In this document: positions 1-27,083 of the stretch, piece after piece
How the letters are laid out: the number at the start of each line of letters is the position of its first letter
How positions within the stretch are numbered: position 1 is the stretch's first letter
Virus record (IMG/VR): IMGVR_UViG_3300025097_001935
Span: 1 to 27,083 of that record
Reading direction: 5' to 3' (one strand)
DNA from: a virus
Length of the DNA: 27,083 bases
Notes under the pieces: generated by a model
Told to the model about the DNA's origin: nothing
The model's input: only the letters and a program-made list of their open reading frames with translations
Database searches by the model: none
Made by a program: the position numbers and the translations under genes

Positions 1-64
1 ATCGCCGTGATAGTGGTTGTGCCTATCACAGCACCTTGGATTACTTGCGGTAATCAATCGGAAA
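1..64. other. Left-edge non-coding stretch with two small hairpins
   Basis: No open frame with a start and ribosome-binding site is visible. Two short perfect inverted repeats are present: GTGATAG at 7-13 with CTATCAC at 23-29 (9-base loop), and GATTAC at 39-44 with GTAATC at 50-55 (5-base loop). Neither is followed by a T-run on either strand. They may be RNA-processing or regulatory structures, or chance. The next gene lies outside the window. Confidence 0.35.
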
Positions 65-96
65 GGACCCCCAAGACCCAACGGTCTCAGGGGTCC
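61..96 (-). terminator. Probable terminator after the 79 aa gene
   Basis: GGACCCC at 65-71 pairs with GGGGTCC at 90-96, and AGACC at 74-78 pairs with GGTCT at 83-87. A 2x2 internal loop separates the two stems and the loop is CAAC. The hairpin starts 12 bases after the stop codon of the minus-strand 79 aa gene. On the minus strand it is followed by only TTTC, so as an intrinsic terminator it is GC-strong but poor in U. Confidence 0.55.
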
Positions 97-108
97 GTGT
101 GACAGTGG

Positions 109-348
109 TCAGTCCTGCTGCTGGGCCGCGTAGATCGCGTCCAGTTCAGTGATGGTCTTGCCTGTCCGTCGAGACATTTCGCCTTTGGCCGCAGCCACTG
201 TTGCGGGCAGGGACTTCGGGTTCTTGTAAGCCGAGTTGACAAGCGAGGACATCGCTTGCTTGGTCACTGGCACTCGCTTGTTGCTATGGAAGCAACGCTC
301 GAAGTCAGCCATCGCTGACTTCTGCTCCGGTGTGATCTTGTTAGGCAT
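109..348 (-). CDS. Hypothetical 79 aa protein
   Basis: Function not recognised. The start is well supported: the minus strand reads AGGAGG seven bases before the ATG at 348. The protein is small, Lys/Ala/Gln-rich and probably mostly helical, with no signal peptide, membrane segment or cysteine cluster (one Cys only, in the FERCFH stretch around residue 19). It is isolated: a 428-base gene-free region lies upstream and a hairpin terminator directly downstream, so it is probably transcribed as its own short unit, possibly from the minus-strand promoter candidate at 604-621. Its position next to a phage-promoter-like region would suit a small early or host-interaction protein, but that is inference only. 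Confidence 0.75.
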   Translation of the reverse strand: MPNKITPEQKSAMADFERCFHSNKRVPVTKQAMSSLVNSAYKNPKSLPATVAAAKGEMSRRTGKTITELDAIYAAQQQD

Positions 349-542
349 GATATGCCTCCTATGGAAAAGAGCAGAGAGTGAGATCCTCGTTCAATCACGC
401 GAAAGAACACAGGTCTTACAATCTACGATCATCTTTATGTGTGAAAGAAGATCACCCCCCGCCCCGAAGGACCGCAGAGCGGTCGTGAGAGGGCTGTAGG
501 TGTTCTGTAAAGTATAATATGATTAGGTACCTAGCTAGTAAC

Positions 543-560
543 CCTAGGGTACTACTATAG
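543..560 (+). promoter_or_regulatory. Candidate T7-type phage promoter, plus orientation
   Basis: The element CCTAGGGTACTACTATAG matches the minus-strand element at 604-621 at 16 of 18 positions. With the final G taken as +1, it has the same 17+1 layout and the same ACTATAG initiation core as class III T7 promoters (known family feature). A matching single-subunit RNA polymerase is encoded about 0.8 kb away. In this orientation it would transcribe rightward, antisense to the 166 aa and polymerase genes, so either it makes antisense RNA or it is only a mirror product of the palindromes. A weaker relative, one base shorter and ending ACTATAT, lies at about 616-632. Confidence 0.4.
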
Positions 561-603
561 AACATAGGAGAATAATATTATAATTTTATCTACACCTATA
601 TAA

Positions 604-621
604 CTATAGTTATACCCTAGG
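604..621 (-). promoter_or_regulatory. Candidate T7-type phage promoter, minus orientation
   Basis: Read on the minus strand from 621 to 604 the element is CCTAGGGTATAACTATAG, sharing 16 of 18 bases with the plus-strand copy at 543-560. Transcription would start near 604 and run toward the 79 aa gene, leaving a leader of about 256 bases. The ACTATAG core and 18-base length resemble T7-type promoters. It overlaps the 16-base palindrome at 599-614. The assignment rests on resemblance and on the nearby polymerase gene, not on several independent intergenic copies. Confidence 0.45.
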
Positions 622-736
622 TTCTACTATATACTCCAACTATAGGTAACCACAACATATAGTAGGTACACTAGCATCTGCATGCCGTTCCTCATTTATA
701 TAATTATTTGTGTCAACCCCCCCCGGAGGAGGTGTC

Positions 737-769
737 AAAAACTCTCCTAGAGCCGAAACCCTAGGAGAG
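737..769 (-). terminator. Intrinsic terminator after the 166 aa gene
   Basis: A 9-bp perfect stem (CTCTCCTAG 742-750 / CTAGGAGAG 761-769) with a 10-base loop is followed on the minus strand by five T (741-737). It begins 8 bases past the stop codon of the 166 aa gene. This is the most classical rho-independent terminator in the window and probably ends the transcript carrying the RNA polymerase gene. Confidence 0.85.
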
Positions 770-776
770 CTGAGGG

Positions 777-1277
777 TTATCGGACAGAGCAGCCGGGGAA
801 CTGACTCCTATGCCACTTCTCTACAAATGGTCGTACCGGCATGTCTTCTTCCCAGCCCTTAAGGTTGAAGACTTCGGTATTACCATGATACTCAAGTGTG
901 ATCTTCATCACACCCTTATCAATGTCCACTGCCGCTGATATAAGCTTGAAGCTTGTCAGCTGTCCTATCGTGATCCTTGGATGCAGCCTTTGCTCCAATC
1001 CCAAGTCACTGATTCCAGCAGCCTTTCGTACCTCTAGAGTACCAAACATCAGTTCATGAATGGCTTCAGCTGAGGTTGTGAGACTGACCTCTTGAGTCTG
1101 TTTGAGGTAGACCCATGCAGCTGCATTCTTCCACAGGTTCGGGATGAACCTTGCGGATACGAAAGCACCGCCACGATAAATATACAGTGTACCCGGTTGG
1201 TCACCTACTGTGACTGAGTGGCCCGAGTACGTCCTCAATCCAATGTCCCCTGAAAGAGGAATAGGTTCGAAAGCCAT
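777..1277 (-). CDS. Hypothetical 166 aa protein
   Basis: Function not recognised. The ATG at 1277 is preceded on the minus strand by AGAAAGGAAAG with about 8 bases spacing. The predicted protein is mixed alpha/beta, with beta-rich stretches in both halves (for example LYIYRGGAFVSARF near residues 31-44 and GVMKITLEYHG near 121-131). It has no signal peptide and no transmembrane segment. It follows the RNA polymerase gene by 74 bases, in which a strong hairpin sits, and is ended by an intrinsic terminator, so it is the last gene of that transcript. Base composition matches the polymerase gene rather than the late structural genes. No catalytic motif is apparent. Confidence 0.8.
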   Translation of the reverse strand: MAFEPIPLSGDIGLRTYSGHSVTVGDQPGTLYIYRGGAFVSARFIPNLWKNAAAWVYLKQTQEVSLTTSAEAIHELMFGTLEVRKAAGISDLGLEQRLHPRITIGQLTSFKLISAAVDIDKGVMKITLEYHGNTEVFNLKGWEEDMPVRPFVEKWHRSQFPGCSVR

Positions 1278-1302
1278 GTTGACTTTCCTTTCTACCCTGT
1301 GA

Positions 1303-1344
1303 GGGTACTAGCCAAGCAACGAGCTTAGCTAGTACCCTTAGGGT
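1303..1344. other. Strong intergenic hairpin sharing an element with the 524-560 region
   Basis: GGGTACTAGC at 1303-1312 pairs perfectly with GCTAGTACCC at 1328-1337. After one mismatch, AAGC (1314-1317) pairs with GCTT (1323-1326) around a 5-base loop. No T-run follows on the minus strand, so it is not a typical intrinsic terminator. A processing site for RNase III or a protein-binding site is more likely. The right arm belongs to a 19-base block (1326-1344) that recurs with two one-base indels at 532-550. Confidence 0.7.
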
Positions 1345-1351
1345 GTTTGAA

Positions 1352-3091
1352 TTAGAGTCCAACGACCATTGGAGTATGATCGTGATTCCAAGGCTTCCAG
1401 TCGCCTTGTTCTTTCCAGAGCGTGGTTACATCGAAGGGCAGATTACTCTGCTTATGGGTCTCCAAGAAGCAATGGCTGAAGGTCTTCATAGCCCACTCAA
1501 GGTAAGCTATTGGGATCACAACAGCATCATGGATGGCTCTGCAAGGAATATTCTTTTCCTTACATTTGAGAACGAAACTGAACATGTTGAAACTGTCCAA
1601 GTTATGGATCAGTTTAGCCAGAACATCTGTGTAAGAACTCTCTACCAGTGTAGAGACTCCACAACCATGTTTCAGTCCTTCGTCATCAACGAAGGAGATA
1701 CCATGCTTCTTTGTGTCCAGCTCACGGTAGTCGAGGATTGGGCATTGCCAACCTCCGATACCAACTACCCTGTCTTCGGGCACTGAGCCTCCAGCCCATG
1801 TTGTCAACCTCTCTACGATAAGAGGAATCATGGGGAAGCAGGACTTGAAGTGAGTAGCATAAGGACTACCCACTTTCTTCTCGAAGAGCTTGACCGCTTC
1901 TTGTGGGTCTTCGATACCCGCAAGAAGTTTCTCGAACGGCTTAGGAACAACGAGTCCCTCATTTGGGATCTTCCAGCAATTCTTGCTATGATCCCATTTG
2001 ATGTCGAGAATCTGTCCAGTGATGGCCTTCTTGCCACCACCGTACTGTCCGACTGTTGTACATGACTTGGCCCAGATCAGTATCTCTTTGATACTCCATG
2101 TAGCCATGAATGGACAACGGCTCTTCAGCTTTGCAACCATACGGAAGTGGAGCTTTCTCCACTTGCTATGATAGCAGTCGATCTCATACATGGAGTACTG
2201 ACCCCATTCCATGAGAATGTGAACAAGACCAGAGGTATGAGCATCGAACTCGACACCTCTGTTAGTCTTGCCTGACTTGCAGATGTCTCGCCATGCTTTG
2301 GCATAAGAGATGGCCTTGATACCATTCTTCTTATCTGAGACATCATCTTCAGCCAAGACTTTCTTAGCCCAGTTGTCTACACCTCTAGTGCCTTGGAGTC
2401 CATACTCCAGACACAGGCATACTTGGAAGAACAACTTGGCCTTCTTCGAGACCTTGAACTTCCTCTTGAACACGAACCAGAAGCGACTCTGAGGCGTGTT
2501 CACTGGACCACACCCACGCATGGACTCGTGAGTGCCTCGGCCACTGATCTGTGTAGTCAGCCACTTGCCAAATACAGAATCAGCTTTGCCGATGTCATTG
2601 ATTGTTTCTGCCACATACGCAGGCATGTAGCCTTCTTTCTGGTCATCCGGCAGCGTTGCCAGATGCCTTTCACAAGAGCCGAACAGTTGTTTGTCCAAGA
2701 CATATTCACAACTGCCCAGATACCTCAGGGCCTCAGACCAGAGAGGAGGCACGGTATTGGTTGCCATCTTGCCAACCACCGGCTCCTCGTACTGAGGCTC
2801 TGTTGAGAAGTACTCAGGCTCGCCCTCATACATAGGCTTACCTTGTACCCATGACTGAAAGATTGCTCTTTCAACCGATCCAGCGACCTCACGAGAGAAG
2901 GGAATACCCATCTCTGCAATGACATCGTTACGTAGAGTTTCGATGGCTTTGCTGTTACCATCCTGCTTTTGCAGGCGTGTATGCAACATAGCCACGTAAC
3001 TCTTGAGCTTTGAGAATACAATTGTAGTTGCATTCTCTGCTCGTTCTCTCAGTGTCCTAGGTTCACTGGGAGTGAGCGAGAGCTTTTTCAT
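1352..3091 (-). CDS. Single-subunit DNA-directed RNA polymerase, T7 family, compact
   Basis: Transcribes phage genes from phage-specific promoters. Landmarks (579 aa numbering): a possible DxxGR-like element QISGR at 181-185; motif A, FDAHTSGLVH, with catalytic D283; motif B with K342 followed eight residues later by Y350-G351, the same K-to-YG spacing as T7 K631/Y639; the IHNLD element with H496 and D499; and motif C with H521-D522. K342 to D522 is 180 residues (181 in T7). The protein is much shorter than T7 RNA polymerase (883 aa): the N-terminal part is reduced and motif A to B is 59 residues instead of 94. The position of T7 R627 is Leu338. The start is set at the ATG at 3091, preceded by AGAAAGGAG; an upstream in-frame TTG at 3124 lies before that ribosome site and is less likely. 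Unusually, it lies downstream of the late genes. Confidence 0.88.
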   Translation of the reverse strand: MKKLSLTPSEPRTLRERAENATTIVFSKLKSYVAMLHTRLQKQDGNSKAIETLRNDVIAEMGIPFSREVAGSVERAIFQSWVQGKPMYEGEPEYFSTEPQYEEPVVGKMATNTVPPLWSEALRYLGSCEYVLDKQLFGSCERHLATLPDDQKEGYMPAYVAETINDIGKADSVFGKWLTTQISGRGTHESMRGCGPVNTPQSRFWFVFKRKFKVSKKAKLFFQVCLCLEYGLQGTRGVDNWAKKVLAEDDVSDKKNGIKAISYAKAWRDICKSGKTNRGVEFDAHTSGLVHILMEWGQYSMYEIDCYHSKWRKLHFRMVAKLKSRCPFMATWSIKEILIWAKSCTTVGQYGGGKKAITGQILDIKWDHSKNCWKIPNEGLVVPKPFEKLLAGIEDPQEAVKLFEKKVGSPYATHFKSCFPMIPLIVERLTTWAGGSVPEDRVVGIGGWQCPILDYRELDTKKHGISFVDDEGLKHGCGVSTLVESSYTDVLAKLIHNLDSFNMFSFVLKCKEKNIPCRAIHDAVVIPIAYLEWAMKTFSHCFLETHKQSNLPFDVTTLWKEQGDWKPWNHDHTPMVVGL

Positions 3092-3107
3092 GCTCGCACT
3101 CCTTTCT

Positions 3108-3149
3108 GTCCCGACGAGGGACAATGTGCTGTCATTGAAGGCTGACAGC
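3108..3149. other. Two tandem hairpins in front of the RNA polymerase gene
   Basis: GTCCC 3108-3112 / GGGAC 3118-3122 (5-base loop), and GCTGTCA 3128-3134 / TGACAGC 3143-3149 (8-base loop). In the minus-strand transcript both lie between the 112 aa gene and the polymerase ribosome-binding site. No T-run follows, so they may be RNA-processing or stability elements, as hairpins between T7 genes are (known RNase III sites), or partial attenuators of polymerase expression. Confidence 0.55.
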
Positions 3150-3176
3150 TGGGCCTAATGAAACTGTCTGGTGGCC

Positions 3177-3515
3177 TCAATACACCCAGTCTAACCTCTG
3201 TTTTGGGGTATATGAGCTCCATTCTCTGACATGCCGACCAGTCAGATTACGCCATGACTTATCAAGGCATAACCAAAACCCTTGTTGGTCTGCCGTTAGC
3301 TCTCCAATAGCTACGACATCGCCCGGAGAGACACAGAGTCCATCGCCTCCGGTTTGTTGCATTACCATCTCGGCAATGTCATGGAGAGAGACATAACCTT
3401 GAGTAAGGAATAACTCCGTAAGGTCATCAATACTCAAGGAGATTGTCACCTCATGTTTTTTACCATCGGTGTGCTTGAAGATCATGCACGACCACTTAAG
3501 CTTTTCGTTAATCAT
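3177..3515 (-). CDS. Hypothetical 112 aa protein
   Basis: Function not recognised. The ATG at 3515 overlaps the stop of the upstream 50 aa gene as ATGA and has its own ribosome site (GAAGGAGA, about 7 bases upstream), so translation is probably coupled. The sequence is soluble, with a likely helical segment SLSIDDLTELFLTQ (residues about 26-39), a second helix at about 44-55, and a Trp-rich C-terminal part with four Trp (FWLCLDKSWR, REWSSY, LDWVY). There is no signal peptide. It sits between a small membrane protein and the RNA polymerase, 85 bases before the polymerase start. Confidence 0.75.
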   Translation of the reverse strand: MINEKLKWSCMIFKHTDGKKHEVTISLSIDDLTELFLTQGYVSLHDIAEMVMQQTGGDGLCVSPGDVVAIGELTADQQGFWLCLDKSWRNLTGRHVREWSSYTPKQRLDWVY

Positions 3516-3664
3516 GTCAGGTCTCCTTCCAAGACTACGGCTACCAAGTACCCAACCATCCCGGCAAAGGGAATGAAGGCTGAGGTAATGGTCCCTACGA
3601 AGGGGAAGATGGCAAGGCCACCAAAGAAGAGCACAAGGCTCACGATATGGATCAGCTTATACAT
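3512..3664 (-). CDS. Small membrane protein, 50 aa, possible holin-like
   Basis: The minus-strand frame opens with ATG at 3664 after an excellent ribosome site (AAAAGGAGG, 7 bases spacing) and ends at a TGA overlapping the next start by 4 bases (ATGA). The product has 50 residues: a short MYKLIH head, a first hydrophobic stretch at about 7-25, a second at about 28-45, and an acidic tail (EGDLT). A two-helix membrane hairpin following the late structural genes would suit a small holin or another lysis accessory, but no sequence family was recognised, and many phage membrane miniproteins have other roles. The coupling and ribosome site make a real gene likely despite the length. Confidence 0.75.
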   Translation of the reverse strand: MYKLIHIVSLVLFFGGLAIFPFVGTITSAFIPFAGMVGYLVAVVLEGDLT

Positions 3665-3683
3665 TGCTGGTCCTCCTTTTAGA

Positions 3684-3729
3684 GGGGGTACGGGGGGAAA
3701 TCCACAACGGCTTTCCTATCCATACCCCC
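3684..3729. other. Nested inverted repeats between the giant gene and the small membrane protein gene
   Basis: GGGGGTA 3684-3690 pairs with TACCCCC 3723-3729; inside it GGAAA 3696-3700 pairs with TTTCC 3712-3716. It lies in the 94 bases after the giant gene stop and just upstream of the next ribosome-binding site. There is no T-run in the minus direction. It may be a leaky stop or an RNA-processing point between the late operon and the downstream genes. Confidence 0.5.
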
Positions 3730-3758
3730 GTGTAAATTCGTGACCCCCTAGTCGATTT

Positions 3759-6700
3759 CTACAGCAGTCCCTCGGGCATCTCCAGTTTCTCCGGTTGCTC
3801 TTCAATAGAGGCTACTAGGTCTGTACTCTTAGCTTGCCCTGAGGGAGCCGGAGAGCTCGCCACAGGGACGCTAGGCTCTTCTGAGGGCTGGGGTACTGGT
3901 TGCTCTTCGGCAGGCAGTACGTGGCTTCTAGAGTCTCTCTGAGCACGGCGGCTAGGAATACCTAAGGGACTAGCGAATTGACGCTCATACTTAGGCCAAT
4001 CAGGCTCCCACCCAAACGAGTCAAACAATCTTCCTAATCGACTTTCATAGGAACTATTCCTGAACTCTTCTGGTAGACCCATATGCTGGAAGTTATACTG
4101 TGGTTTTAAATTCAGTCCAGAGCTACTACCTCCGCCGGAGTTATGCTGTTTCTTCTCGATCATATCTCCCCATGCTGAGTAGATCCCCAATCTAACAAAG
4201 GCATCTCCAATCATAGGGATAATTCTAGTAGCATTAACCAGATCTTGTTTTGCAAGACTTCCTTCTCCTATCCAACCAGTTCCTAGAGCTACCATATTTT
4301 TTACAACATTAATAGCAGCGGAAGCGGGGATAAAACCATTAGGAGCATCCTTCCCACCAGCCAGAGCAGCCGCAGCCACAGCCATTTGTGCGTAGTACTT
4401 ACCGAAGATAGGAAGCCTTGTTCCATACGTTGTTATAAAACCACTGACTCCACGTTCTTCAAGGTCTTCAAAAAGATCTTCTTTACTAGTACCTGTAGCT
4501 AACCTAAGAAGCATCATGTAGATAATATCTAAAAGAAGCATAGTAATTGCTGTACCAGCCCAAGCTGTCATACTCGATTTTGCTCCTTTGCGGAACATCA
4601 TTTGATTTGCCCACAACACAGGGAATCTACGGAATGTTTCCCATGCCCGAGACCTTAGATCAGTACCAGTATACATATCAAAGACATTAGGCTCAACCAT
4701 ATTCTCATGGATGTATTGAGTTTCGGCTGTTTTAATACCACCAGCAATATCTAACATATTTTTATAATGTGGAGAACCACCTGCCCCTGCATCTGCAATA
4801 GCCAATTGACTTAATAAATGATTTAAGACAAATACCTTGTCCTTGTGTGCGCTATCTTTCATTGCTATTACTAAATCATTTACACGACTAGTATGTAATA
4901 AGCCAGCTACTCTGTAATACTCTAATAGTTTTCCATACCTCATCCAACTAATATTATGTTTATTCATTAAGGCTTTCTTAGCTTTAATAGTAGCCGGTTT
5001 AGTATCGTTTAATTCAGCCACATATCCCATAAACTTATCTTCGTTTTTAACAGCCAGTTTATACATGGCTTTCCTAGCCGTCATAACCCTTGCTGCAATT
5101 GTTTGTCTAAGCACATATTTAGGAACTCTTAAAGCCATATCTGCTGCCGAGTTAACAAAACCGGAGAACATGGCTGGATCATGATCTGAAGCTATTGCAT
5201 CATAATCAGGAAGATGTCCTTGAGTAATAGATTCAATCAGATCTAGGTGGTCTTCAGCCATAAGCCTTAAAGCTTCACCTTGAAGACCAGCTGTCAATGG
5301 AGTAAAGAATGTTCTAAGGCCATCAATAAAACGACCTTCTCCAACTATAGTTACCAAAGTATTAGTAATATGTTCTACAGTTAATGAAGCTAATCCTAGG
5401 TTTCCTGCAAAAGCAAGCTTAGTAATTCCGGGAGCCATTTCGAAAGCCCAGTCTGCCATCTTTCCGTAGCTTGACTCATTCTTTTGGAAACCTCGTAAGA
5501 AGTCATATTTTTCTTGCAGGAATTTCATTGTTGATCTAAAATCTTTTTGTTTTTGCGGGCTTAACGCTCCACCATTAAAGTCGTGTAAGGCTCCTTGCTT
5601 TGCAAGTGTTGAAAATAAAGTAAGGACATCTTGGAACGTTCCTTTAATTCCAAATTGATTTTTTAATATCTGTTTTTCTGCTGTTTCATCAAAAAGACCT
5701 CGCTTTAAATTTGAAAGTGTTTTGTCTGGATTCAATGCTAAACCTTTTCTTATATGTTTATCAGAAATTACTTCCCCTACTCTAGGAACCCACCAAGCAT
5801 CTCTAGCTAAATAGTGGCCTGCATACGCTCTCTGAATAAAATTCATTGTCATCATATGTAAAGCGTTATTATATTCATTTCCTTTCATTAAACTTTCGTG
5901 TAATAATAAAGGAGCTCTTCCTTCTCCCGGTATAAAAGCCATGGCAGATCTAAACCTTTCCGACCGCCTCATACCTTCTTTCGTCATCACAAGTAAAGAT
6001 TGCAGTCTATTATTATGCTCTTGAGTTATGGTTTCCATGTTACTAACCCGATTCAAATTAGCTCTATAAGCGTTTTTTATAGTATTTAGTTCTCCAACGT
6101 GGCTCCCAAATTTAGCTAGGGTAGCCCAAGTAACAACACCATCAGCCATCTTATTATTTATCCTTGCTACAGCAGTATTAAGTGACACACGTATACTAGT
6201 TTCTCTATTCCTAAGGCTTTGTAAAAATGTTCTTCTAAACTTATTTTTTGAATCAGCGAAGGTATCTGCAATAGGTTCTCCAATTATACGCTCTTTAGAA
6301 CTCAGCTTTTCTCTATTCTCAATCTTCCAAACTTCAGACATAAGGAAATTAAACATTATAGGTAAACGAGGTTCACCTTCTGGTGTCAAAAGATCTTCTA
6401 CGGTATTTTCTATGCTATCTATCACAGGGAACAAATAATGTCCTTCTTCAGTTTTAGAGGTTAATAAAAAGTGAGGCTGTATTCTCCCATGGGTGTCTTC
6501 GTTTTTAACATTGTCTATAAATATATTAGACATCCTCTCAGAAAACCTTAAATTAATATCAGCACTCTTTATGTCTTTTGATAAGAGGTAACCCATTAAA
6601 GGATTATGTATTCCAACCTCAGTCCATTCCCCCAGTTCTTGCATATCTGAGATAATATTTTGCATAAACGCTCGCATTTCTTTTGCCATATTAGAAACCA

Positions 6701-9700
6701 ACTGATTAATTTCTAAGACATGTTCTTCTGAATAATTTTCTCTTAAGATAACTTCTGCCTCTTCTGTATGCTGAATTACTGCCCCTTCGTTTTCAACTAA
6801 AGTAGCCCAAATACCCCAACTACTATCCGCAATAATTTTTGATGATGCTCGCATCCCACGGGTTTTCCCTGCACCATGGAGTGCCGTGCTAAAACGTCCT
6901 CTAATTATGTCAATTAAATTATGTTGTTGACTAACTATACTGCTTTGAACAAGAGCCGCAGATTTGAGAGCTGACGTTAAGGAGTGAACACCTGAAGTTG
7001 TCATTAAGTCGCCTTCAAAAACATTTAGGTTACCATCAATAAGATTTGTTAACCAACGGGCAACCAATAAACTTGAGCCCATAGTAAATTCAGAACCTAC
7101 GTGGCCTGAGACACCGCTCTGAGCGAGTCCACGCACATCAATACGCTCTGTACTTAATACCGATGCTACAGCTCTTGCTGCTCGGGCAGCTCCTCGTTGC
7201 ATTTCGTTCCCTTTCTTTTCTGCTAGATCGTCTAACATATACTGACCCATCCAACGTACCTTCTCTGCCAAGACCGCTTCCGACTCGTTTCCAGTCTGTA
7301 TAAATAAACGACTAAGATCTAAGGTCCCCTCATCAGAGGTCATTTTTCTTGTATATTCCTCATACTTACCATAATACATCTTTCTCTTTAAACCAGTTGG
7401 ACCAACAATATCTAGTTTAGTTTCTAGAAATCTCTTTTCTCCTTGTTGTTCTGAAGATAGAACTTCTGTTTCCTCTAGTTCCTTTAGTTTTCTTGCCATT
7501 TCAACATGCTCATCATGATCTACCTTACTAGGAGCTTCGTTATTATGGAACACAGGTTGGAAACCACCGCCCATAGCTTCATAACTTTGGTGTGGGTTGC
7601 CTACATCTGGTAAGACTAATTTAGTAAGGGGATCTAAACCAAATAACCTACTCATTAAATCAGCAACATCTTTCCTATCCTTTGTAATCTTTTGCCAAAC
7701 ATGACTAAGATCTAAGAACAGTCCGTGGACAAAGCCCATCATTCGTTCGATAATACTAGTGGACCTAGCTTTAGCTCCAGCTTCCTCATTAGTAAGATTA
7801 CTAATTTCTGGGAGAAGGTCTTGTAATAAATGATATGATCCTAAGCCAGCAATAAACTCTTCTGTATTTGTAGTATACTTTCTATACTCAGCCCTAGCTT
7901 CTGAAGTCCACTGTCCTCCATGCCAAGCAAGAACTAGTTTCTTTATATAACTCTTTCCAGATCCAGACTCCATAAGATATTTAAAGGAGTTCCACTCAGC
8001 ACCATTATCTTTAATAAACTTAATTCGAGCAACATGAGTTATCTCATGGGCAAAGAGTTCTAGAGCAGAGAATTGATGGCTACTTACATCTCTTAAGTCT
8101 GGACCAAATCGAACAAAATATTTACCATGGGAATCTTTCCCACCCTCAAAAGTTCTTGCATCTATATCAAAAGAAGTGTCTTGTATCAATAAAGGATTAG
8201 TAGCATAAAGATTTAATACCATTATTCGCATAAATCTAGCTTGCTGTCCATCTACCCTACCACTACTTTCGAGCAGTCCAATTTGTCGAGCTATGGCTTG
8301 AAGATCCTCTCTAACAAGGCCTCCCTGATCTCTAGCAAAGTCAACCATAGTCTGTGTATCTCTAGCATAATTCTGTTCTAGTATCCTGTGTTTCAGGGGA
8401 ACAGGTGCTCCCTCTTGAACAGGATGAGGAGAAGAAAGACCATAGACTCCAGAGATTTTATTCCTAGCTTCTTGAGATTGTATAGATCGATAGAGAGCCA
8501 CAGTAGCAAGCTTTTCTTTTAAGCCACTCTCTGGCGTATCTGGGAATAGGATTTTTAGTTCCCTAATAAATCCTGATGTATCTTCTGGTAGGGCGTGCTT
8601 ACCAAAGATAGATTCAATTCCGTCACGAGTGGTCCTCCACTCTGTGCCCCTGAAGTTCCGATTTAAGTTAGTGCCCCAAGTTGCTGTATTTTGTCCCTCA
8701 GCCCAAGCGGGTACTAGAGAACCAACATCGAGACTTTCCCCATCAATGACTAAACTATTAGCCTCTTGGAGTTTTTTGAATAAGTCTGCTGTTAGCTCTA
8801 TATCCCTATTATTATATTCCTCTAATCTTTGCCGAGCTTTCTCTGGAGTTAACTTATTAATTGTTTCTATTTGCGCATCAAATCCTCCCCGTTCATTGAC
8901 ATGGGTTCTACTAACTATAACTCCTCTACTTCTTTCCCATAAGAGAATAGCCAATGCACCACTCTCTTCGGTCTTGCCTTTTCCCCCCAAAGCTTCTGAC
9001 ACCGCTTCTAATTTTAAACCCCTCGAACTTGTTCGATTGTTCCAAGACATTATATTGGTCATTAAATCAACACCTCTTGCGGCAATCCTAGAAGCTAACT
9101 GCATGTCTCCAGCAATCTTCCCTAGAATTCTAAGATCGAAACCTATTCCATTATAAGTTACTATTTTGTAACCATCGTTTATTTTTTGTTCTAAGTTCCT
9201 TAGAATTTCTAAGGCTTCTTTTTTAGTGAGCTCTTTATCCCGTACCCCATGACTTCTTTCACCAGTCTTGGTATCGAGAGAAGCTATTGCTACTACTCTC
9301 TCATGCTGAAGATCTGATTCTATATCTAAGACATAAAGTTTACCATCTTTCATCCAGTTCGCTGTATCAGAGAATTCTGGGCTAGTTGCGTCTACAGCTA
9401 AACCTAACTGAGTAAGTAGTTCGGTGGTTCTGGCTACGTACGCAACCCGAGTTAACTCAGGATTATCTATAGAAAAACCATCCCATTCTCCGCTTTTTTT
9501 TAATCTCTGGATGAAAGCATCTTCGGGATTCATAAGTAACTCTTCACTGAGGGGCAGAATTCCCATACTAAGGTCATAAGCCATTGATTCAGCAGCAAGA
9601 CTAAATGGTAGATTACCAACAATAGAGTTTCTGTTTTCAAGAACAATCATCTGTCGCTGCAAACCAAAGGCTTCCTCAATAAGAGGTCCTACATCCTGTA

Positions 9701-12700
9701 ATCCCTTTTGGTTGGTTCGGTCAACATCATAAATCTTTGGATCTAACATCCACAAGTATTGTCCTTCATTGATTTCTCTTATTGAGTCTCTTTCAGAAGC
9801 TTCTAATAATACTCCTGTATTATGAATCATGGCTGTTAAAATAGAGGCTACTCCACCAGATTTTATATCCCCTTCAGTAACCCCTGTAATCAGTTCTTCT
9901 AGACGAGACAACACACCAAAGCCTTCCAAGCCATGTCTTTGGGATATACTAATAAACTCCTTTATCGGAGCTATCCTTGCTTCTACCCAAGGCAATAGTA
10001 GATCGATATTACTCCCTCGTTGAATGGCATCAAGATCAATTAAACTACGCTTATTGGTAAAAGGACCGGGGGTTGTCATCTGTGGCCCTTTGGTCTCCGG
10101 TGTTTTAGTAACATTAATAATCATTTCCAAAGCACGGCTAATTTGGAATGCTTCGTTTGTTTGAGTTTCTGTAGTATATCCAATTGCTCTTTGCACAGTA
10201 TCTTGTAAAGGATCTGCTTTAACCCTTGTTCCCTCTGGACCTCTTTTAAACCCAAAGACTTTCCCTGCCGCTGCTGCCATATTTAAACTATGTATTACAT
10301 GGTGATTATCAATAATACTAAACATGTCTATTACAGCTGCTGGAGTTAAAGCTAACTTAAATTTTCCGCCAATCAACTTATATTCTCTAGGTATCAGGAC
10401 TTTAAAAGCAAAGCCTAGTTCAGAAAGTGAGTGGGCGGATTGCATAGGAATCTCTTTTCCGTCTCTTTCAACCGTCATTGGGAATTGCTGCTGCAAAGAT
10501 AATGCATGACTATAGTCCTGATTTTCTACTTTGGTTATATCAAAAGTCAGTGAAATTGGCGTTTGCTCGCCCGACAAAGCTAGTTTTCTAACTTGATGCC
10601 AGATCGCCGGGCGGTGGTCTAATGCTATATCCTTCTCCCACCTACTTGGATCCTTGAACCATTTCTCTTCTTTATGCTTATAGGGTTTTTGACCCTCATA
10701 CTCAAAATCCTTAAGTACCTTAGAAACATAATCCTGTATTAAAAGGTTAGGTAAATAAGCAAACGAATCTCTACCCTGTGGAATTTTAGCAGCAGTACCC
10801 GTAGGAGCCTTTCTTACATATTCTGCGAACTTCTCGCCTTGCTTGATAAGTTCCTTTAGTTCAGCCTGTTCGTCATCAGATTTAATTATAACAGTACCCT
10901 CATAAAGAACTGTACCAAAGTCTATTTCTTCCTCAATAGGCGTTGGACTTAATCTGTTATTAGTAACAGCGTCTGCATAAGTTTCACCTGCTTCTATAAG
11001 TTTCGTTATAGCAAGAGGTTGATCTGGTCTTTCGAGTATAATACTAGAGTGTTCCCAATTATTTAGGTTTCTTGCTACTTTTGAAAGTAGGTGTATTCTC
11101 TCAAGATACTGTTCTCTTCGTATATTAAGCTCGTCTATATCAGGATTAGATTTAGAATATCTAGTAAACTCCTCATTAATTTCAGATAATTTCTTAACCA
11201 ACCAATAATAAGGGTATAGCTCACTGGGGTGTTTATATAATTCTGCTAACTCATTATCACCATAAACCCGTTGTACCCAGTTATCTATGTCTTTCGCGGT
11301 CTTTGCAGCAAACATGTTTTCTTCAGGAGTCTCATTAAACCTAGCCAGATAATCAATCACTCTTCTTTGCGGAGGAGCAAACCTAGAGCCTTCATAGGCA
11401 CTAGTCCAACCCCATATAGTCTTATCTTCAAGAGATGTATCTTCATCCATCCCATACTCAAAATCCTCACCTAATATATTTTTTAGTTTATGATGAACTA
11501 CGCTTTCTTGTAAAGCAAAGATACCTCGATCTGTAAAAGCCGATCTAGTATACTGGGGTGATAAAGATAAGATGCCGCGTTGTTGAGAGTTATTAATATA
11601 GTGAGTAACCTCTGATTCTGAGTTAACATATACTCTTGGAGCCGTATTGAGTTTCTCAGCTACACCCTTATTAAATAATCCAAATTTACTTTTAAGCTGC
11701 AAAGCCTTAGGTCCTAGTTGTTCTTCTAAGGCTTGTTCAGCTTGTAATTCCTCACCCATTCTTTCTTGACTCTCTAAATGTTTCATTGCAAAGTCTTGAT
11801 TAAAAAGCACATCACTGTCTTCGGCAGTATAATTAGGAAATATTGATTTGGGAAGTTTTCCGTAAGAAGCCCACCACAGCATAATTTGTTTATATAAAAT
11901 GTTCTCGATTGCGACTTCAGCCTCCTCTAGGGTCATTTCATGATAAGCATTATCTACTAGGTCAAACAGGCCCAGAGTTTCTTCCGCTCCTTTAAACTCT
12001 AAATATTCTTCAAGAACTTTACTCTTTGCTTCGGTATTCCACTCGTCTCCATTATTTTCGTGTTCCCCTTGTCTTATCTCAAAATACTGCTCATAACTAG
12101 TAATCTTTTGCCCAGCATAGTTTATGCCTGTTAAAACAGTTGCAACACGATCTATAGCTTGACCAGTAATATTAAATTTTGAAGCATGTGCTGAATATAA
12201 TCTCCCAGACATTGGGGAGGTCCCCACACCAAGGTAGACGCTATGTCCAACTAAGTGTCCCATCATTTCGTCTAGATCAACACCAGAGAGTGCAAGGGAT
12301 TCTGCTACAGCAGCCGCTCTTTTTCGGTTGAAGGTGTGTCCAGAAGCACCTAGCATATTCATAGCTCTGAAGGTAGCGTTTTGAATTTGTGGCATATCCG
12401 GTCTCCAAATATCCTTTAACCTTTGGATATCTTGCTCAGATACTAACATACCGTTTCCACGTCTCTCTATCTCCGCAAAAAATTCTTCTGTTGCTTTATA
12501 TTGCTTATTGTATCTTTCCTTATATTCTCTCTGAACAGCTTCATGATCAACCGCTCCTTCTTCTGTTCCGTCTTTTCTTCTTCTTTTAAAAGTAAGCTCC
12601 GCAGCTAAGTCCATATTTTCTTCCCATAGTTTTTTTAACTCCCCTAATCGAACTATGGTTGGTGTAAAGTCAGGATCTGGGCTTTCAGACTGTTCGGTAT

Positions 12701-15700
12701 TTCGTTGAATTGTTTCTGATCCCATAACTGCTCCAGCAGAGTTTCTTCGGGTTATTGTAATGTCATCACCCTTTGGGGTCATAGCTTTTTTTGTTGCTTG
12801 AAGCTCACTCCATCTTTCTGTCATTTCTGCAATATCAACTTTACCTAAAGACTTTCTATGATCAACCCCTAAAAGCTTAAGTACGGTATTTCTTAGATCT
12901 TTAGTAACACCAGTAGTAGCTTCAATAAGATTCATTTTACTTACTTCGGCTCTAGTATAGGCTTCACTAAGTGCAATACCTAATTGAGTAATCTTAAGAT
13001 TAAAGAGAATGTTTTCCAAACTCTTTAATACCGGTTCAGGAGGAGCTGTAAACTCTTGGTCCATTGCTTCATATAGTTGCTCCATAGCCTCATAACCCTT
13101 GCCTTGGGGAGTAAAGAATTCTTTTTTAAAGTTTTCTTTACCTGCTTCATAACCTGTCCGCATGAGGGGTACTTTCATTACTGCTCTTAAGGCTACAACA
13201 ACAGGGTCTTTACTGGTCTTTATTTGCTCAACCTTTGTAATACCTTCTAAATGCCGCATAGCTTCGCCTATAATCCCTAAATCGTTCGCTATTTGTGACC
13301 TGTTAGTTCTTAAAGTTTCTATAGCAGTTTTAAGATTCAAGAGCCCAGCACCATAAATATCTTCAAGCTGTGCATCGGTAGCGGTTTCTCTTAAGACAGC
13401 TCCTAATAAACCGTGTTCTTCTATAGCCTTAGTAAACCCAACTTCATCTGCCTCTGTCAATTGTGTAATAATTTTCTCCATAGCTCCCGGAACAAGGGCT
13501 AAGGAAGCAAGTTTCCACTCATGCCTAAAGCTTGCGTTTCTATCGACATGGTTTGCGTCTGAATAGATTTCACTAGTATCTAAATCCGGGTTATCGTTTT
13601 TCCACTTCTTATATTGTTCATTATGATAATCAATAACTTCCTCGACAAGGCCGTGTAAAGCTGGTCCCATCATCTCTATTGAAAAAGCCTCTCCCCAGCG
13701 CCAAATAGGAAGATCTATATCATCGCCTTGAGTTAGAACTGTTGAACCATGTTTCCACTGTGGGTTAAACATAAGATCAGCATCTCTGGAACTAGTAATC
13801 TGATCAAAGATTGTAGAGATTCCCATATTGGGCATATTGAAAAGATAATCTAATAAGAGAGAATGTAGCTGAGACAGGGTTGGTATAGACTGGTCTAAAG
13901 CACCCCCTATAAGTTCAGGAGCTATTCCTGCACCGAAGATAACTCCCAATGGATTTGGGGTGCCTTCAGAAGTATTAGCTTCGTTAATCCATGTTTCGAA
14001 AGCTTCTCTAACACTCTCAGTCATTTCTAAATTAAAAATCTCTTTAACTCTTAAATTAAATCTTTCTCTATTTTGCATTTCGACAAATTTAGCTAGCGGT
14101 GTTTTACTGGCTTTATTTAGTCCCCCAATACCTGCTGTAGCAATACGAAGCGATATACCACCTTCACCTGCATCGTCCTCATTTCTAAAACTTTCGTTCT
14201 GTCCTTCTACAACACTAAGACTTCGTTGTATACTCAACTCCTTATCTGACAATACATCTATAAGGCCATGTCCAACATCCTCTGGAGAAGCCCAATCTAA
14301 CTCCCCATTTCCAAAGTTCTCAATTGTCCACTCTATGCTTTCCCTCGGCGGGGCCAGTACATGGAGATTCTCAATAATCTCTTCAACTGTTTGTTGAACC
14401 GCAGAATGGCTCCTTACTGAATCTAAACCTAGTCTACTTCTAAGTTTATTTAGTTTTGCTAGTTTCTTAGTATCAGAGAACCTAAGTAAAAAAGTATTTA
14501 GTCTGGTTGTCATAGCCTCTATTACAGCCTTTTTAAATAAAAGGCCATTATGCGAGTCTCCTTGGAACGTAATTTTACCTGTAATAAGGTTAACGCTTGA
14601 AATAAAACCATGTACTGCATAGTTTATCTGTAATATAGGTGTTAAACTATGTCGTAAAGTATTAAGATAATCTTTAACCATTACAAGATTAAGGGTTTCA
14701 ATATTATTTAGAATATGCTGTTCCCTTTCTTCCCCTAAAACATCAAGTGCTTCGCTGACCCAACCTTTTAATTCATTAGCGGAACGGGCTTGTTCTCTTT
14801 GGACTATTTCGATTACGCTCTTAAGATTATACATGTGAATTTCTTCTGGAGATGGGTTTCCTATAATAGCTTGCCGTGCTAACGTTCGCCAATCAAGTCC
14901 TCTTTCATTAAGGGCTGAGATAAGATGTCTAATTTCTGCTAATTGGCCCTCAGCTACTAGGTATTCTCCATCTTCAACTATTGTGTGATCGCTAGAATAT
15001 AATTCTTGAAGAAATGTTAATGCACTGGTCCAAGTGTTAAGTTTTTCTATATCACTTGACCATACTCTATCAGGTATTCCGGGAGTACTCCTCTCCAGAA
15101 CATCCGCCCTCGTTTTTGTCGGCATCGGTATTTGACCCTTAGTTCTCAGAGCCTCAAGAATACTGATGACATCTGAACTATTTTTGGGCGTTTCAAATTT
15201 AGATCTCTTAATTACTTGATCATGAGAATCCTTTAACATTTCTCTAGCTTTGTCTACAGTAAGTTCTTCGTTCTGTACTTTCACAAGCGCTTCACCTTCT
15301 AATCCTCTTGTTATATTAAAATAATTTTGAGAGTGACTGGAACTTGGGGCTACCCAGCCACCCATAGTAATCTTCTTACCATCTTTTGTTACTACACGAG
15401 TTCTCATCATCTCATCCAGAGTAAAGGTAACTTCGGCTTGCTCAGTAACTGTAGCTTCAGCTGGTGATACACGGCTTTTAACTACACTTTCAGAAATACC
15501 TAGATTATCAGCTATTTTCTTAACAATAGCATCATCTATTGTACGTCCTTGGGCATCTAATTCATTCAAGATGACATCTAGAGCCCTAAGTTTTGCATCA
15601 GGCACTAGTGCATCTTTTAATGGTATTTTGGTTTTTATTACCGGCTCACCTTTTTGTGAGACTTCTATTCCCAGCTTACCTAGCTCAGTATCACCAAAGA

Positions 15701-18700
15701 GTAACGGAGCCATACCACCTTTGTTTTGAAGGCGTATTCTTGCAGCTTGTCCCGGCCCTCTATTTACAAATATGCCTTGATTATCGACATTAAATGCTGG
15801 ATCTAAATGACCATCTCCGTCAACCACAACCGACACCAGAATATCTCCACCTACGACATGGCCCCATCCAGATTCACCAAAGTCTTCAGCAAGCCAATCC
15901 TTTACATCAAAAAAGCGTCTTCCCTTTTTATCGGCAATCTGTTTTAACTTTAAATCCTTTTTAAGACCCACCATCTTATTTTCTGCCTTTTTTAACAGCA
16001 TAGTCTTTATATGCTCGGGTATAGTAGGATCTTCTTTTATAGTTGCTATAGCTTTTTCAATAGACCGAACAGCTTGTTCAACTGGCATTTCATTAACTTT
16101 ATGGTCTATTACTTGTGCAGCATCATTCCAGTTTTCTATTGTTGGATCGGGTCGGTTGAATAGGGAGGTAGGAGCCTCGGTTGGACGAGCCTCACGAGGA
16201 CCAGCAGCAGCTTTTCGCTCTTTAACAACGGCTTCAAAGTGCTTCTCTAATTCTCTCAATACCCTTCTTACTTCTTGCTGATGACCTAAGGCAATAATAC
16301 CATCTTGTGCTCTTTTTAAGTTTCTGCCTTGAACCCTCTGTTGTCTAATACGTATAGTAGACGCATAGTTCTGGTATTCATTTTTCTTCTTCTTTTTTTT
16401 GCTCTGTAGTTCCTTATAAGCCTCCCAATATGTTTTTCCGGTTTGGGGATCTACCTCTTTCTGTAATCCCTTTTCTATTATTTGTATAAAGTCTTCTTCT
16501 GTCTTTTTAACAAGTTTATTAAATTTATCCGCTTTCACACTTTGCTGGTCTAATAATTTTTCTAATCGTGTAGTATCCAGCTCAGTATCTTCCATAAAAT
16601 TAATCAGCCGACGTAAAGCTTTTTTAGTTTTATCAGTAAGTGTAATTGTACTCTTAGTCTCTTGTAGGTTGTCATAAGCCCTGTTTACAAGGACTGATAG
16701 AATTCTTTTTAATCTTCTATGCTGTATTTCGATCTTTTTCCATTCTGGCCTTTCGATTTCGTTTAGCTTTTTATTTATAGCTTCTAACTCGGTTTTAAAG
16801 TTTTGAAGCATTTCAAATTCTACTCTAGTTGTAAAACTCGTAAGGCTTCTCATTTCTTCTAATGAAATTTGAAGCTGTTCTTCTAAACCGCTTAGGTTAT
16901 CAATTTCTTCCCTCTTCCCTTGCACTTCTGATGCTAGGTCTGTTTTCTCGGAGTCTTGGTCATCATTTAGTTGTTCAAATTCTTCCTGAAGTTCCTTTAC
17001 TTCTTGACCCAACTGGGTTTTTTTGGCTGTTATTTTAGCAAGAGCTCCTGCTGTTCTTTCTTCTGCGGTCTCTGTTCCCGTCTGTGCAGCTTCACTAGTA
17101 ATTATATCTCCCTCTTCATTTACAGTCGTAGACGTATCCTCACCCGTAAATACACCCTCAGTAGCTGTATCTATGTTTCTTAGGATTTCTTCCCAACTAA
17201 AAATAGTTTTATGTCGGAGATCGCCCACCTCATTAAGATGCTGGTTAAAAAAGTCGCTTACCGCACTTAGCTTCTCCTCGTTTGTCTTTTCACTCCAACT
17301 GTCTTCTTTAGTCTCCTCAAACATATTTCGGATTTCGGGAGGCAAGAGTAGTTCTGGTTGATCTGCTAAAACATCCGCAGCTTGTTCCAGACTTATCTCT
17401 TCTGTAGATTCTTTAGCTATCTGTTCAATCAATAGGGAATAATTGACCCTCATAATAATTGCATCCTTTGCGTCTTCACTGATAGTACCAGTATGCTCAC
17501 TTTCAATAAGTCGTTCTACCACAACACCAAGTAATTCCTCTGTAGTATATCCCTCTTCGTTTGGTGTAATATCCTGTAAAATTTCAGCTAAAATTTCTCC
17601 GGAATGCTCTGGAGAAATTCCCATTTTGTCGAAGATAACAGCCAAACTAAGGCTATGGCTTTCGCCCTCAAGGAGTTCTCCAAACGATAAAGAATCAGCT
17701 CCTTCAAGCAATAGTTGGTCTAAGCTTCCTCGCACAGAATCAAATGCTTCGAGCTGTTTTAGGTAACCTTCAGCCGTCTCGGCTCTTAAGAATATCTTTG
17801 ATCTTTTACTGATGGAAAGTATATTTTTAGCGAGGGTTCCACCAGCCTTAGCCCTAGCTCGTAGACCATGGCCCATTAAAGACAGGGGAAGACCACCACC
17901 AAGGCCTATGCCTTTATAACCCCAACCAATGACAGGGTTAATAGCCGGAGAAATTATGGCTTCGAATAAAGTTTCCCAACCAATTCTTCCCCAGTCTAAT
18001 TCCTTTTGATCATGCATGTACATTTTTCTATACTGATTTCTAACCTCAGCCATAAACCCAGTAAGAGCACCTTCTGCAACATTACCGGGAATATTCTTTA
18101 ACCCTCTTACAAAAAACCCCTTGAACCCCTTTCCTCTTGCATAACCCTCTTTCCAAAGATATTTTCTTAAAAGATGAGGACCTACGGTTTCGGGGAGATA
18201 GTTTTGGGCTCTTTGAAGACCTCTTGTTATTCTTAATACTTTCCTAGTTTTATTTATAGATTTTGTAAGTTGGTATACTCCTGAAGCTACTAAAGAAGTA
18301 CCTCCTGTTAAGATACCAAGCAATAAAGAAATTCCCGTACTAGTAACCATATCAGGATCATTAATAACGCCATTAACCAATAGGTTTTTTACCCAGTCTG
18401 CTGTCCAGTAAAGAGTACCATGTCTCTCACCAAAGTCTTCAATACTTTGTCCGATTTCCTTTTTTCTTACAGCATCTCCTAACAGATAGAAGAACTGTGC
18501 TGGATTTCTAGCATTTTTGGTAAGAGTATAAAGACTGTCAACAGAACCCAGTTGCCTTAAAAGAAAGTTAGCTCTTTCGGGATCTCTTTCTAAAAGAATA
18601 TCTACTGCATCTTTAGGGCTCCATCCCGGAGGAGGATTACTGGCCAGCATATCTGTGATATCCTCTTTCCCATGGGATATACCAGACCATTGGTCTACCA

Positions 18701-19119: not shown

Positions 19120-22100
19120 CTATTCTGTCTGATCATAGTGTCTTATCTGTTTTGATTCTGACCCTGACATTTCTTTGTAGAACAGGTTTTCCTCTGAGAA
19201 TTTTAATCGTTCATTACTATACCGAGGAGGAAACCATTTTCTGGAAGAGTTACTTGAAATAGCAGCTGGATGCAAGTTGGATCTACTATAAGAAAAATCT
19301 TGATGGGTATAATCTCTTGTATCATTATTACTAGCGTGATCAAATAGCATTCCTTTATTATAACCTAACCACGTTCTCCATCCCCCCCACCCAACTATAC
19401 TACTAGGGATATGTAGATTGTGATAGTAGTTGATTTGGTTGAGGGGTATGTTAAGATGGTCTACGCTGATGAGTTGTGGCCCACTATTAGTATTTACTAG
19501 TATAGCCAAACTTCCTCTATTTGAAGGATCATGGATATAGTAGAAAGGATTAGGATCTACATTATAAGTACCTATGTAATTTGCAGGTCTTTCAGTATCT
19601 GTAGGTTCACTATATATTGTTTTTGGAAGATCTGGACGGGGAAGTTCATTAAGATTTCCTCCGAAAGTTATGCCACTCATAGAAACTAATGATCCGGCAG
19701 GGTGGACCTCTCCATCCTTAGTATCCCATTCTACATCTTCTCTGACTGGAGAATCCGGCCCGACCCAGCCTTTACCTTTCATTACTACTGGGCCCTCTAA
19801 TAAATGATAGAATGTAAACAAAACATCCGTCATTATAAGCTCTCTAACATCTCTCCCGTCGATCGGATCATCTGTTGGTTCTGTGGAAGGAAAGAACCTG
19901 ACCTGACCGGGGCCATATCTATGGCCCATCATAACAGCTTCTATAGGAGTTAGATTGGGCTTCTCAGCTGCTATCCGAGCAGCCTCTGCTCTCCGAGAAA
20001 CCTTTGCTTCTTGGAGAGCAGTCTCAGTATCTTTTGCCCTTCTTGAGACTTCCATTGCAAGCTTTATTAACGGCGTTATCCCCTTACTTCGTTCTTCTTC
20101 TGAAACTCTAACATCGATTCCACTTATTGTAGCTACATTATCTAGAGATCTCTCGCCTGTACGTTCGTTTAAAATCCCAACCTCATTAGTGTCCACATGA
20201 CTTACTAAAAATCGTACTACCCTTTCAGGTCGGGGCTCTGTATATGCCCATTTATGCCAGCCGCTAGTATAACCTAGCAACTCATCACTAGCGGGATCAA
20301 ATAGCTTATCGTTCCGAAACAAACCGAAGCGACCGAAGTGTCTCATGACCCAACCTCTATTACTAACTGTATCCACTCCTACCCTATCATTTGTAAAATC
20401 AGAATATGTACTGCTGAACCAAGGGGTGTTATCTGGATGTCGAATAGTAGCAGTTATTGTCTCGTTGATGATGTCATCGTGTCCGGGAAGGTTGCGGCCT
20501 ACCTCTTCAGCATCATCGGCAGTTGGGGGGTGGGCTGCGGCATTAAGACTATCTACTATTTCCTTAGGTGCCACATCCAATCCGCCATCTGCTCTTCTCC
20601 ATACAGTAGGCTTATTATCATCCCGTACTAAATTAGCTGATCCATACCACCTAGCTAAGTATGTAACCGGCAGACCAACTTTATCTCCCTCAACATCCCC
20701 ACCTAACATAGGTAATTGCATTAAAACTGCTACTGTCTTGGGATCAATTAAGGGATTATTTATCATTAAAGAAATGGTTGATAAAATTTCTATTTTTTGT
20801 TTAGCTGGGCTTAGTTTCTTAAAGTCTTTTTCTTCGTTTGTCGCTATCTCTAGACCTAAAGAAGTAAGCATCATCTCATGAGTTTTCCAAAGCCCATTCT
20901 CATCAAGGATATTTAAATCCTGCCAACCACTTGCTATCAGATAGGCTTCGATTGTTTCCACGGGCTTTGAGGAGAAGAACAGAGAGTCAATCTTTCCCAA
21001 ATCCATCCTGATTTGTTTGAAGGCATCCTTCGCTGCATCCGGGATGTTACCCACAGACCATTCATCCGCTGTCATTAAGGTAGTTATAGTCTCCGCCGCA
21101 TCGCCAACGCCTTGAATAAGGTTTGCTAAGTTATTAGGATCGTCTATTAAACCCATGCCAAGAGAATAAGTAAGTACTCCAGCCTCCTTGAGCTCTTCTA
21201 TCAAAGCTAAAAGAAGTATTTGCCGCTCATCCTCAATTCCTAGCCTATCAAAAAAAGCTTGTCTTGCTGATAGGTTTTCATTACCTGTTAAAACCCCTAA
21301 GTCTGTGATAAGAAAAGCGGCCTGTATTCCAGCAGCTCTACTTTCATCATCCCTGTTAAATTTTTCTATATTAAACAATAAGTGTAAATTCTCTAAACCC
21401 CCAGCATACATCTTTTTTGCTGCTCCTAAAGCTTGAAGTTCGATTCCATATTTTTCTTCAAAATCAAAAAAAGTTCGCATGGCCGCTACTCTACCTGCGG
21501 GGGATTGACCGTGCCAATTAATATTATATCCTCCGGGGTCCTCAGCCGTTGATATAAAGCGCAGAAAATGATCGTCAGTATCTCCAGTTAATTGAGTATA
21601 GTGTTCTTTAAAGGCTTTGTTAAGTTCAGCTTCTACTCCCATACTTAGAAGATCTGCGGAGCGGTTTTTTTCTTGAGGCGGACCATAAACTTTTCCGTTC
21701 ATGAAGTCTTGTAGATACTCGGAATTAGCGGAGGGATTTAAAAATGCATTAATAGCGCCTCTTAAATTAAATATCTCTGTCGATTCAGCCGCATAAAACT
21801 GATTCACAGCTGCGTTTACTTCCGCTACTTTTTGTATAAACGCTATATTTTCATCGGAAGCCTCAACATTTGGATCGGTGGCTAGATATCGAGCGTGCTC
21901 AACGACTTCTTGCCAACTATTAAACTCCGGTTTCCCGGCTTCTCGGAGGAAGTGATTAAAGTATTGCAATCTTGTTAGTTCTTTCTCTTCACCGGGAAGA
22001 CCCGTCCTTTGAGATCTTCTTTTACGTTTTTCTTTGTCTAGATCTTGGTCGAGAACGTATTGAATCAGCTCTTCGGGAGTATTTACCGTCAGTTTAGGGC

Positions 22101-23706: not shown

Positions 23707-23707
23707 T

Positions 23708-26949: not shown

Positions 26950-27083
26950 TCTAAGCTCCTTATGCGGCCCCTAAGGCCATACCTTTGATTCAGGGTACCC
27001 CAGCACCCTGATAATTCAAAGCTCTCTCAGAGGATCCTACGGCCTCTGGAGGTCCATTTGTTATTCTGCCGCTTCTGGGGCTT
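26950..27083 (-). other. Right-edge intergenic region with two hairpins; end of an upstream gene likely
   Basis: In the minus transcript, before the gp14-like gene, two inverted repeats occur: CAGAGG 27028-27033 / CCTCTG 27043-27048, and TCAGGGT 26990-26996 / ACCCTGA 27005-27011, the latter extended by CTTTGA 26983-26988 / TCAAAG 27016-27021. Two frames enter from the right edge: one ends after APEAAE at a TAA (27063-27061), the other runs 30 codons to a TGA at 26992-26990. The first ends cleanly before the hairpins and is the likelier tail of the upstream gene, but 134 bases cannot settle it. Confidence 0.5.

Follow-up and report, generated by a model that had tools for sequence, protein, structure and literature searches.

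Nucleases in injected or virion proteins of phages are already known, namely ParB-like DNases, PBECR RNases and the nuclease domains of MuF toxins (PMC5512222, PMC5576092, as far as these texts were accessible). Polyvalent proteins comprise 131 domain types, with zincin-like peptidases as the hub and with ParB-like DNases and PBECR RNases among the enzymes, and in the part of the source consulted the ParB-like DNases are said to be neither displaced nor accompanied by other DNase domains (PMC5512222). Within the main text of that paper, the word 'exonuclease' occurs in one reference only, and 'DEDD' and 'proofreading' are absent. Of 191 putative MuF toxins, over half carry a nuclease domain, and 'exonuclease' is absent from the accessible text of that report (PMC5576092). 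The N4 virion RNA polymerase is an ejected protein of ∼3,500 residues, according to the available part of a preprint (PMC12633501). For the ejection proteins of T7, a peptidoglycan hydrolase is described for gp16 in the accessible text of PMC8954989 and no nuclease, and the identity among gp16 homologues is given as only about 20%. The original prediction had stated that a nuclease is not part of the T7 gp14-15-16 model, which fits that text, where 'nuclease' is found a single time, within a reference title. No description of a proofreading-type 3′-5′ exonuclease in an ejection-module giant protein was found in the openly accessible literature.

The window, that is, the whole stretch of DNA analysed here, is an IMG/VR virus record of 27,083 bases in which the larger genes are all on the minus strand. 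In order, the genes encode 239, 334, 504, 1540 and 5115 aa, and toward base 1 they are followed by ORFs of 112, 590 and 166 aa and by small ORFs. Replication genes are absent from the 27,083-nt window. With the 1540-aa protein as query, a single relative of the window was found, a record of 8432 bases (L063), which is 97.2% identical to the window over 2487 bases and 98.3% identical over 3000 bases (∼5.5 kb together). Its gene order (terL, 240, 334, 704, 1540-like) is the same as that of the window save for one cassette. The terL product of L063 contains the T7 terminase nuclease domain (PF22530, 108.8 bits) and matches 2639 phage records, the best 40 of which are 35.0–39.0% identical; the four phage genomes fetched from these matches were all Autographiviridae. 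By comparison with L063 terL, the edge of the window is the 3′ end of a T7-type large terminase gene, the last 18 codons and stop of which are at 27027–27083 (minus strand, as are all features below).

The gene order across the window and L063 is thus terL, 239/240, 334, 504/704, 1540 and 5115 aa. The 239-aa protein (26230–26949) has a hydrophobic N-terminus (residues 1–22) and is of the size and in the place of gp14, and no gp14-like profile matches it. The ORF list then gives a 334-aa protein (25203–26207), which is followed by a 504-aa protein (23708–25222) with a C-terminal T4-type lysozyme domain (PF00959, 24.1 bits against a cut-off of 22.3; PHROG 7, endolysin, 3e-7). The 1540-aa protein (19120–23742) belongs to the same gene run, was assigned to no family and has the 97% identical relative in L063. 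The last of the putative ejection-protein genes (3759–19106) is intact, a single uninterrupted ORF of 5115 codons with an ATG start.

Downstream of the giant gene, a 50-aa hydrophobic ORF (3512–3664) follows directly and is holin- or spanin-like in character by eye. The 590-aa ORF (1352–3124) gave a weak match, below the cut-off, to PF00940, the C-terminal part of T7-type RNA polymerase (E 0.0022). By eye, its stretches DAHTSGLVH, GQYGGG and IHDA are all palm-like, and it is presumably short for a member of that family. No relatives were found with the 590-aa ORF or the lysozyme domain as queries. The G+C content is ∼0.49 in bases 1–4100 of the window and ∼0.39 across most of the remainder, and the shift falls within the final ∼110 codons of the giant gene; either real heterogeneity or an assembly join downstream of the giant gene may therefore account for it.

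L063 differs from the window in the enzymatic part of this operon. A cassette of 871 bp with the lysozyme (23731–24601) is replaced in L063 by 1477 bp (L063:3956–5432) that do not align with it, while both flanks are 97–98% identical. The alignment of the 504-aa protein with the 704-aa protein of L063 is limited to residues 1–222 and 1–240, respectively, and the 704-aa protein ends in a different part with HEGTHAAQ (HExxH), for which there was no match among phage records and no credible match in Pfam. Non-aligning cassettes between near-identical flanks show, for this single pair of records, that the enzyme cassette of a protein neighbouring the giant was exchanged between near-identical phages. 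The enzymatic part of the operon turns over and the framework stays near-identical. Since L063 stops short of the giant gene, it is uninformative on the giant's exonuclease itself. Between the two 1540-aa proteins, ∼40 nonsynonymous and 9 synonymous changes were counted in 992 codons (ratio 1.23, significance not assessed), which suggests relaxed or diversifying change in this protein of the putative injection module.

The giant protein was scanned over its whole length in ten overlapping pieces with Pfam and PHROG, and only the exonuclease gave matches below E 0.02. No polymerase family was found in these pieces beyond matches confined to the exonuclease part, so that one domain is confirmed in 5115 residues. 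Hydrophobic segments are located at residues 259–278 (18273–18332) and 4848–4874 (4485–4565), with a third, weaker one at residues 1719–1738. A weak match to SduA/DUF4263 covers residues about 776–884 (E 0.003), and the exonuclease domain itself matched none of the PADLOC defence families at E up to 1. The sequence HEITH at residues 3687–3691 (8034–8048) is a candidate zinc metallopeptidase motif, and EEFIAG follows ∼58 residues later (to about 7845), in the order expected of a zincin. An HExxH occurred in 375 of 2000 shuffles of the giant protein, so HEITH could be chance. The surrounding residues 3556–3860 had no credible Pfam match, and their single-sequence model was unusable (pLDDT 35). 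We regard the metallopeptidase as a candidate, to be used as a lead.

Residues 3254–3450 (8757–9347) of the giant protein form a complete DEDDy 3′-5′ exonuclease domain of the DNA-polymerase-proofreading/PolB-exo2 type, which is probably active. Residues 3240–3460 matched RNase_H_2 (PF13482) at E 1.6e-12 with 48.2 bits (cut-off 22) and DNA_pol_B_exo2 (PF10108) with 29.6 bits (cut-off 24), and both of the families proposed for the domain in the original prediction were therefore above their cut-offs. The PHROG matches were 403, 'DNA polymerase exonuclease subunit' (8.4e-11), and 17, 'DNA polymerase' (9.1e-10). In the translation of 8757–9347, the catalytic residues are all at the positions assigned to them earlier: Exo I with D3261 (9324–9326) and E3263 (9318–9320), Exo II with D3324 in NGIGFD (9135–9137), and Exo III with Y3431-xxx-D3435 in YNNRD (8802–8816). 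These residues and D3347 are invariant in an 8-row alignment; in a 15-row alignment neither Exo I nor the Tyr is invariant, some rows starting late or differing there. Before Exo III the domain has some 13–24 extra residues, the number varying with the relative compared. A DEDDy spacing pattern, designed with the sequence already in view, is found a single time in the protein itself, and 1 of 5000 residue shuffles contained it.

Searches with the domain led mostly to polymerase-linked proteins. In tblastn against 50,697 phage records, two were matched at E up to 0.01, annotated as DNA polymerase II and DnaQ-like exonuclease. At E up to 10 there were 31 records, most of them individually too weak to count, of which 25 were polymerase, polB, DnaQ-like or exonuclease subunit, one was RNase H-like and five were unannotated. 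A 15-sequence profile matched 44 PDB sequences at E up to 0.01, that is, 43 DNA/TNA polymerases (archaeal family B, delta, epsilon and T7 among them) and the exonuclease MrfB. A 14-row profile built from viral contigs with the window left out scored 60 bits on the domain, where the best of 50 shuffles reached 1.4. The 14 loci, which are also behind the 15-row profile and the structural model, were found through the window's own motif YNGIGFD; Pfam and PHROG are therefore the independent tests.

The AlphaFold2 model of the domain from the 15-row alignment had a pLDDT of 76.4 and a pTM of 0.77. The RNase H fold, on whose presence the original prediction had been staked beforehand, is present in this model. 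Foldseek returned 597 matches in the PDB, and the 21 at E up to 0.001 were all DNA/TNA polymerases (archaeal family B and T7); their TM-scores were moderate, 0.44–0.56, and their rmsd values 4.2–13.1. By VIA-align over 1000 chains the top match was 9qrn (Z 14.4), and 432 chains had Z of 8 or more. T7 DNA polymerase (6n7w) was aligned with Z 14.1 and rmsd 3.6 over 167 residues, model residues 18–221 lying on chain residues 1–224. 3′hExo (1w0h) and the diDNase 9f7d both had Z 12.9 and, together with TREX2 and DnaQ, were within 1.6 of the top; with RNA and other exonucleases this close to the best match, substrates are not told apart by fold. Among the named rows of a viral structure library were RNase H-like phage proteins and polymerases. 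Absence from any of these fold searches excluded no family. The sequence GLKLEAVSEALGG, proposed earlier as a helix typical of PolB/DnaQ-type exonucleases, does form a helix in the model, though a short one (residues 3366–3372). The claim that a DEDDy exonuclease lies within the 5115-aa protein was thus borne out, both families being above their cut-offs and the predicted fold matching proofreading exonucleases.

Relatives of the giant protein as a whole were sought with single sequences, an approach limited to close relatives, and the results may leave out records that lie very near the window. The exonuclease, residues 3501–5115 and residues 1–3239 found no giant-protein relative in IMG/VR. 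Against phage records, tblastn with residues 4369–5115 and 251–3239 gave no hits, and the exonuclease and residues 3001–4000 gave hits in the exonuclease part only, in 2 and 1 records, respectively, at E up to 0.01. No plasmid was found with the exonuclease query, and no bacterial genome was confirmed with the exonuclease or residues 4501–5115. The pattern FPxxWANQ, near the C-terminus of the giant protein, gave 14 stretches, none of them related. The pattern YNGIGFD gave 40 stretches, in which the longest containing open frame was 772 aa and several frames were cut by contig ends; 22 of the 40, with open frames 94–565 aa long, are matched by the exonuclease profile, and the frames of 559–565 aa are taken as putatively polymerase-fused. 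In a tree the exonuclease domain is on a long branch with unsupported placement. Third-position GC of the domain is 0.290, against a mean of 0.281 (sd 0.026) in the rest of the gene. A recent acquisition of the domain was considered and found unsupported, with third-position GC like that of the rest of the gene and the long branch.

With middling confidence, we favour the reading that a complete and probably active DEDDy 3′-5′ exonuclease is one module of the 5115-aa protein, which a T7-like podovirus encodes in its ejection-protein operon, and that it acts early on DNA 3′ ends. The giant protein would be packaged in the virion core and would then pass through the tail, so that its internal domains would arrive in the cytoplasm along with the first DNA. 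There, ahead of any phage gene expression, the exonuclease could shorten DNA at free 3′ ends, those of host DNA, of competitor DNA or of the phage's own incoming DNA. DNA is favoured over RNA or a signal nucleotide because the sequence relatives with a specific name comprise DNA polymerases, exonuclease subunits of such polymerases, DnaQ-like phage exonucleases and MrfB; judged by these relatives, a DNA 3′ end is the likely substrate. If the giant protein is ejected, a DNA-processing enzyme would be in the cell before any phage gene is read, and the role of ejected proteins in the cytoplasm could be probed directly through a single domain and a single substitution. A broader reading, which we put forward tentatively and with more doubt than belief, is that this T7-like lineage made its ejection apparatus a delivery platform for exchangeable enzymes, with the exonuclease giant and the swapped lysozyme/HExxH cassette in a second injected protein. 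The exonuclease would in that case attack nucleic acid of the host, of a rival or of a defence system within the first minute.

The exonuclease might instead serve the phage's own DNA, either by trimming or editing the incoming 3′ end or as a proofreading subunit after proteolytic release from the giant protein. The nearest relatives of the domain are indeed polymerase-linked exonucleases. Some podoviruses, such as Lentibacter phage ICBM2 (Zobellviridae), have the exonuclease and the polymerase as separate genes, and one group of jumbo-phage polymerases is described, in the accessible text of PMC7824862, as having no fused exonuclease, which is encoded elsewhere. However, the domain is in a late-module gene outside any replication cluster, and the metallopeptidase that might release it is a motif-level candidate; we consider this alternative unlikely.

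A decidedly unlikely alternative is that the substrate of the domain is not a DNA end but a defence nucleotide, a short oligonucleotide or RNA. The same fold serves other substrates, as in the diDNase and 3′hExo mentioned above, both of which are close to the best rows of the structural comparison, and enzymes targeting signals are predicted in injected polyvalent proteins (PMC7824862, in the part consulted). Against this, no RNase or oligonucleotidase family was matched beyond the general RNase_H_2 superfamily model, and all but one (MrfB) of the PDB sequences matched by the profile are DNA/TNA polymerases.

The favoured reading also depends on ejection of the giant protein. From gene position, ejection of the giant protein is a fair supposition, and it reads as an ejection protein because of its position, the protein sizes, the lysozyme and the hydrophobic segments. 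Profiles built from the gp14-, gp15- and gp16-like proteins of four T7-like phages, of which two genomes annotate internal virion proteins and most profile members were assigned by position, matched no protein of the window. Internal virion proteins are annotated in Desulfovibrio phage ProddE (proteins B, C and D) and Pelagibacter phage HTVC119P (protein D), and their genes lie between the tail tubular genes and the tail-fibre gene. In these two of the four fetched genomes, no late protein is longer than 'internal virion protein D' (1210 and 1268 aa), and the other two have a longest late protein of like size in the same place under other names. In the window the gene run begins directly after terL, unlike in the four T7-like genomes, so the layout differs. 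The earlier designation as an ejected virion protein was accordingly supported by the context only (a T7-type terminase, a gp14-sized protein and a lysozyme protein) and found no backing in the gp14, gp15 and gp16 profiles. The failure to detect gp14-16-like homology and the different place of the run would suit a giant protein with a structural role, in the tail or elsewhere, or one made after infection. Its place after the gp14-sized and lysozyme proteins in a T7-type late module argues otherwise, and we think it quite improbable that the giant protein is not ejected.

Very improbable, finally, is a former exonuclease that is now a DNA-binding fold only, gripping entering DNA in the manner of the clamp proposed for gp16-C in the available text of PMC8954989; the long branch of the domain would agree with this, but the five catalytic positions and the invariant D3347 are kept at 21–33% overall identity to the aligned relatives, so that loss of catalysis is unlikely.

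Compared with the known systems, the domain favoured here as an early-acting exonuclease is like the DEDDy exonucleases of PF13482 and PF10108 and the proofreading domains of family-B, T7 and other phage polymerases in its predicted fold and its Exo I–III residues. It differs from polymerase proofreading domains in that no polymerase domain was found in the protein and in its place, from residue 3254 on, within a late-module protein of 5115 aa. Like the polyvalent proteins such as P1 DdrB and DarB, as these are described in the accessible text of PMC5512222, the giant protein is very large, is predicted to be injected and carries an enzymatic module of unrelated biochemistry, with an HExxH motif in the same chain and a lysozyme in the same operon; here one domain is confirmed and HEITH is a candidate only. 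The N4 virion RNA polymerase (gp50) is likewise an enzyme of giant size and several domains, an HExxH subdomain among them, and is ejected (PMC12633501, a preprint consulted in part), whereas in the present case ejection is deduced from context, the enzyme is a nuclease and not a polymerase, the terminase is of T7 type and the candidate RNA polymerase is on a separate 590-aa ORF. The MuF toxins of temperate phages share nuclease domains attached to phage head-type proteins (PMC5576092, accessible text), but no MuF family was found in the Pfam scans here and the exonuclease is internal. With the T7 gp16 ejectosome the locus has in common a T7-type terminase, the place in the late module, hydrophobic segments near both ends and a peptidoglycan hydrolase in the module. 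The giant protein is more than three times longer than gp16-like proteins, which are 609–1337 aa in the part of PMC8954989 consulted and 1181–1576 aa in the four profiled proteins; the lysozyme is on a separate protein, homology is not detectable and a nuclease domain is present. Within the accessible literature, what is new here is a DEDDy exonuclease of the proofreading type inside a protein of 5115 aa from a putative ejection module.
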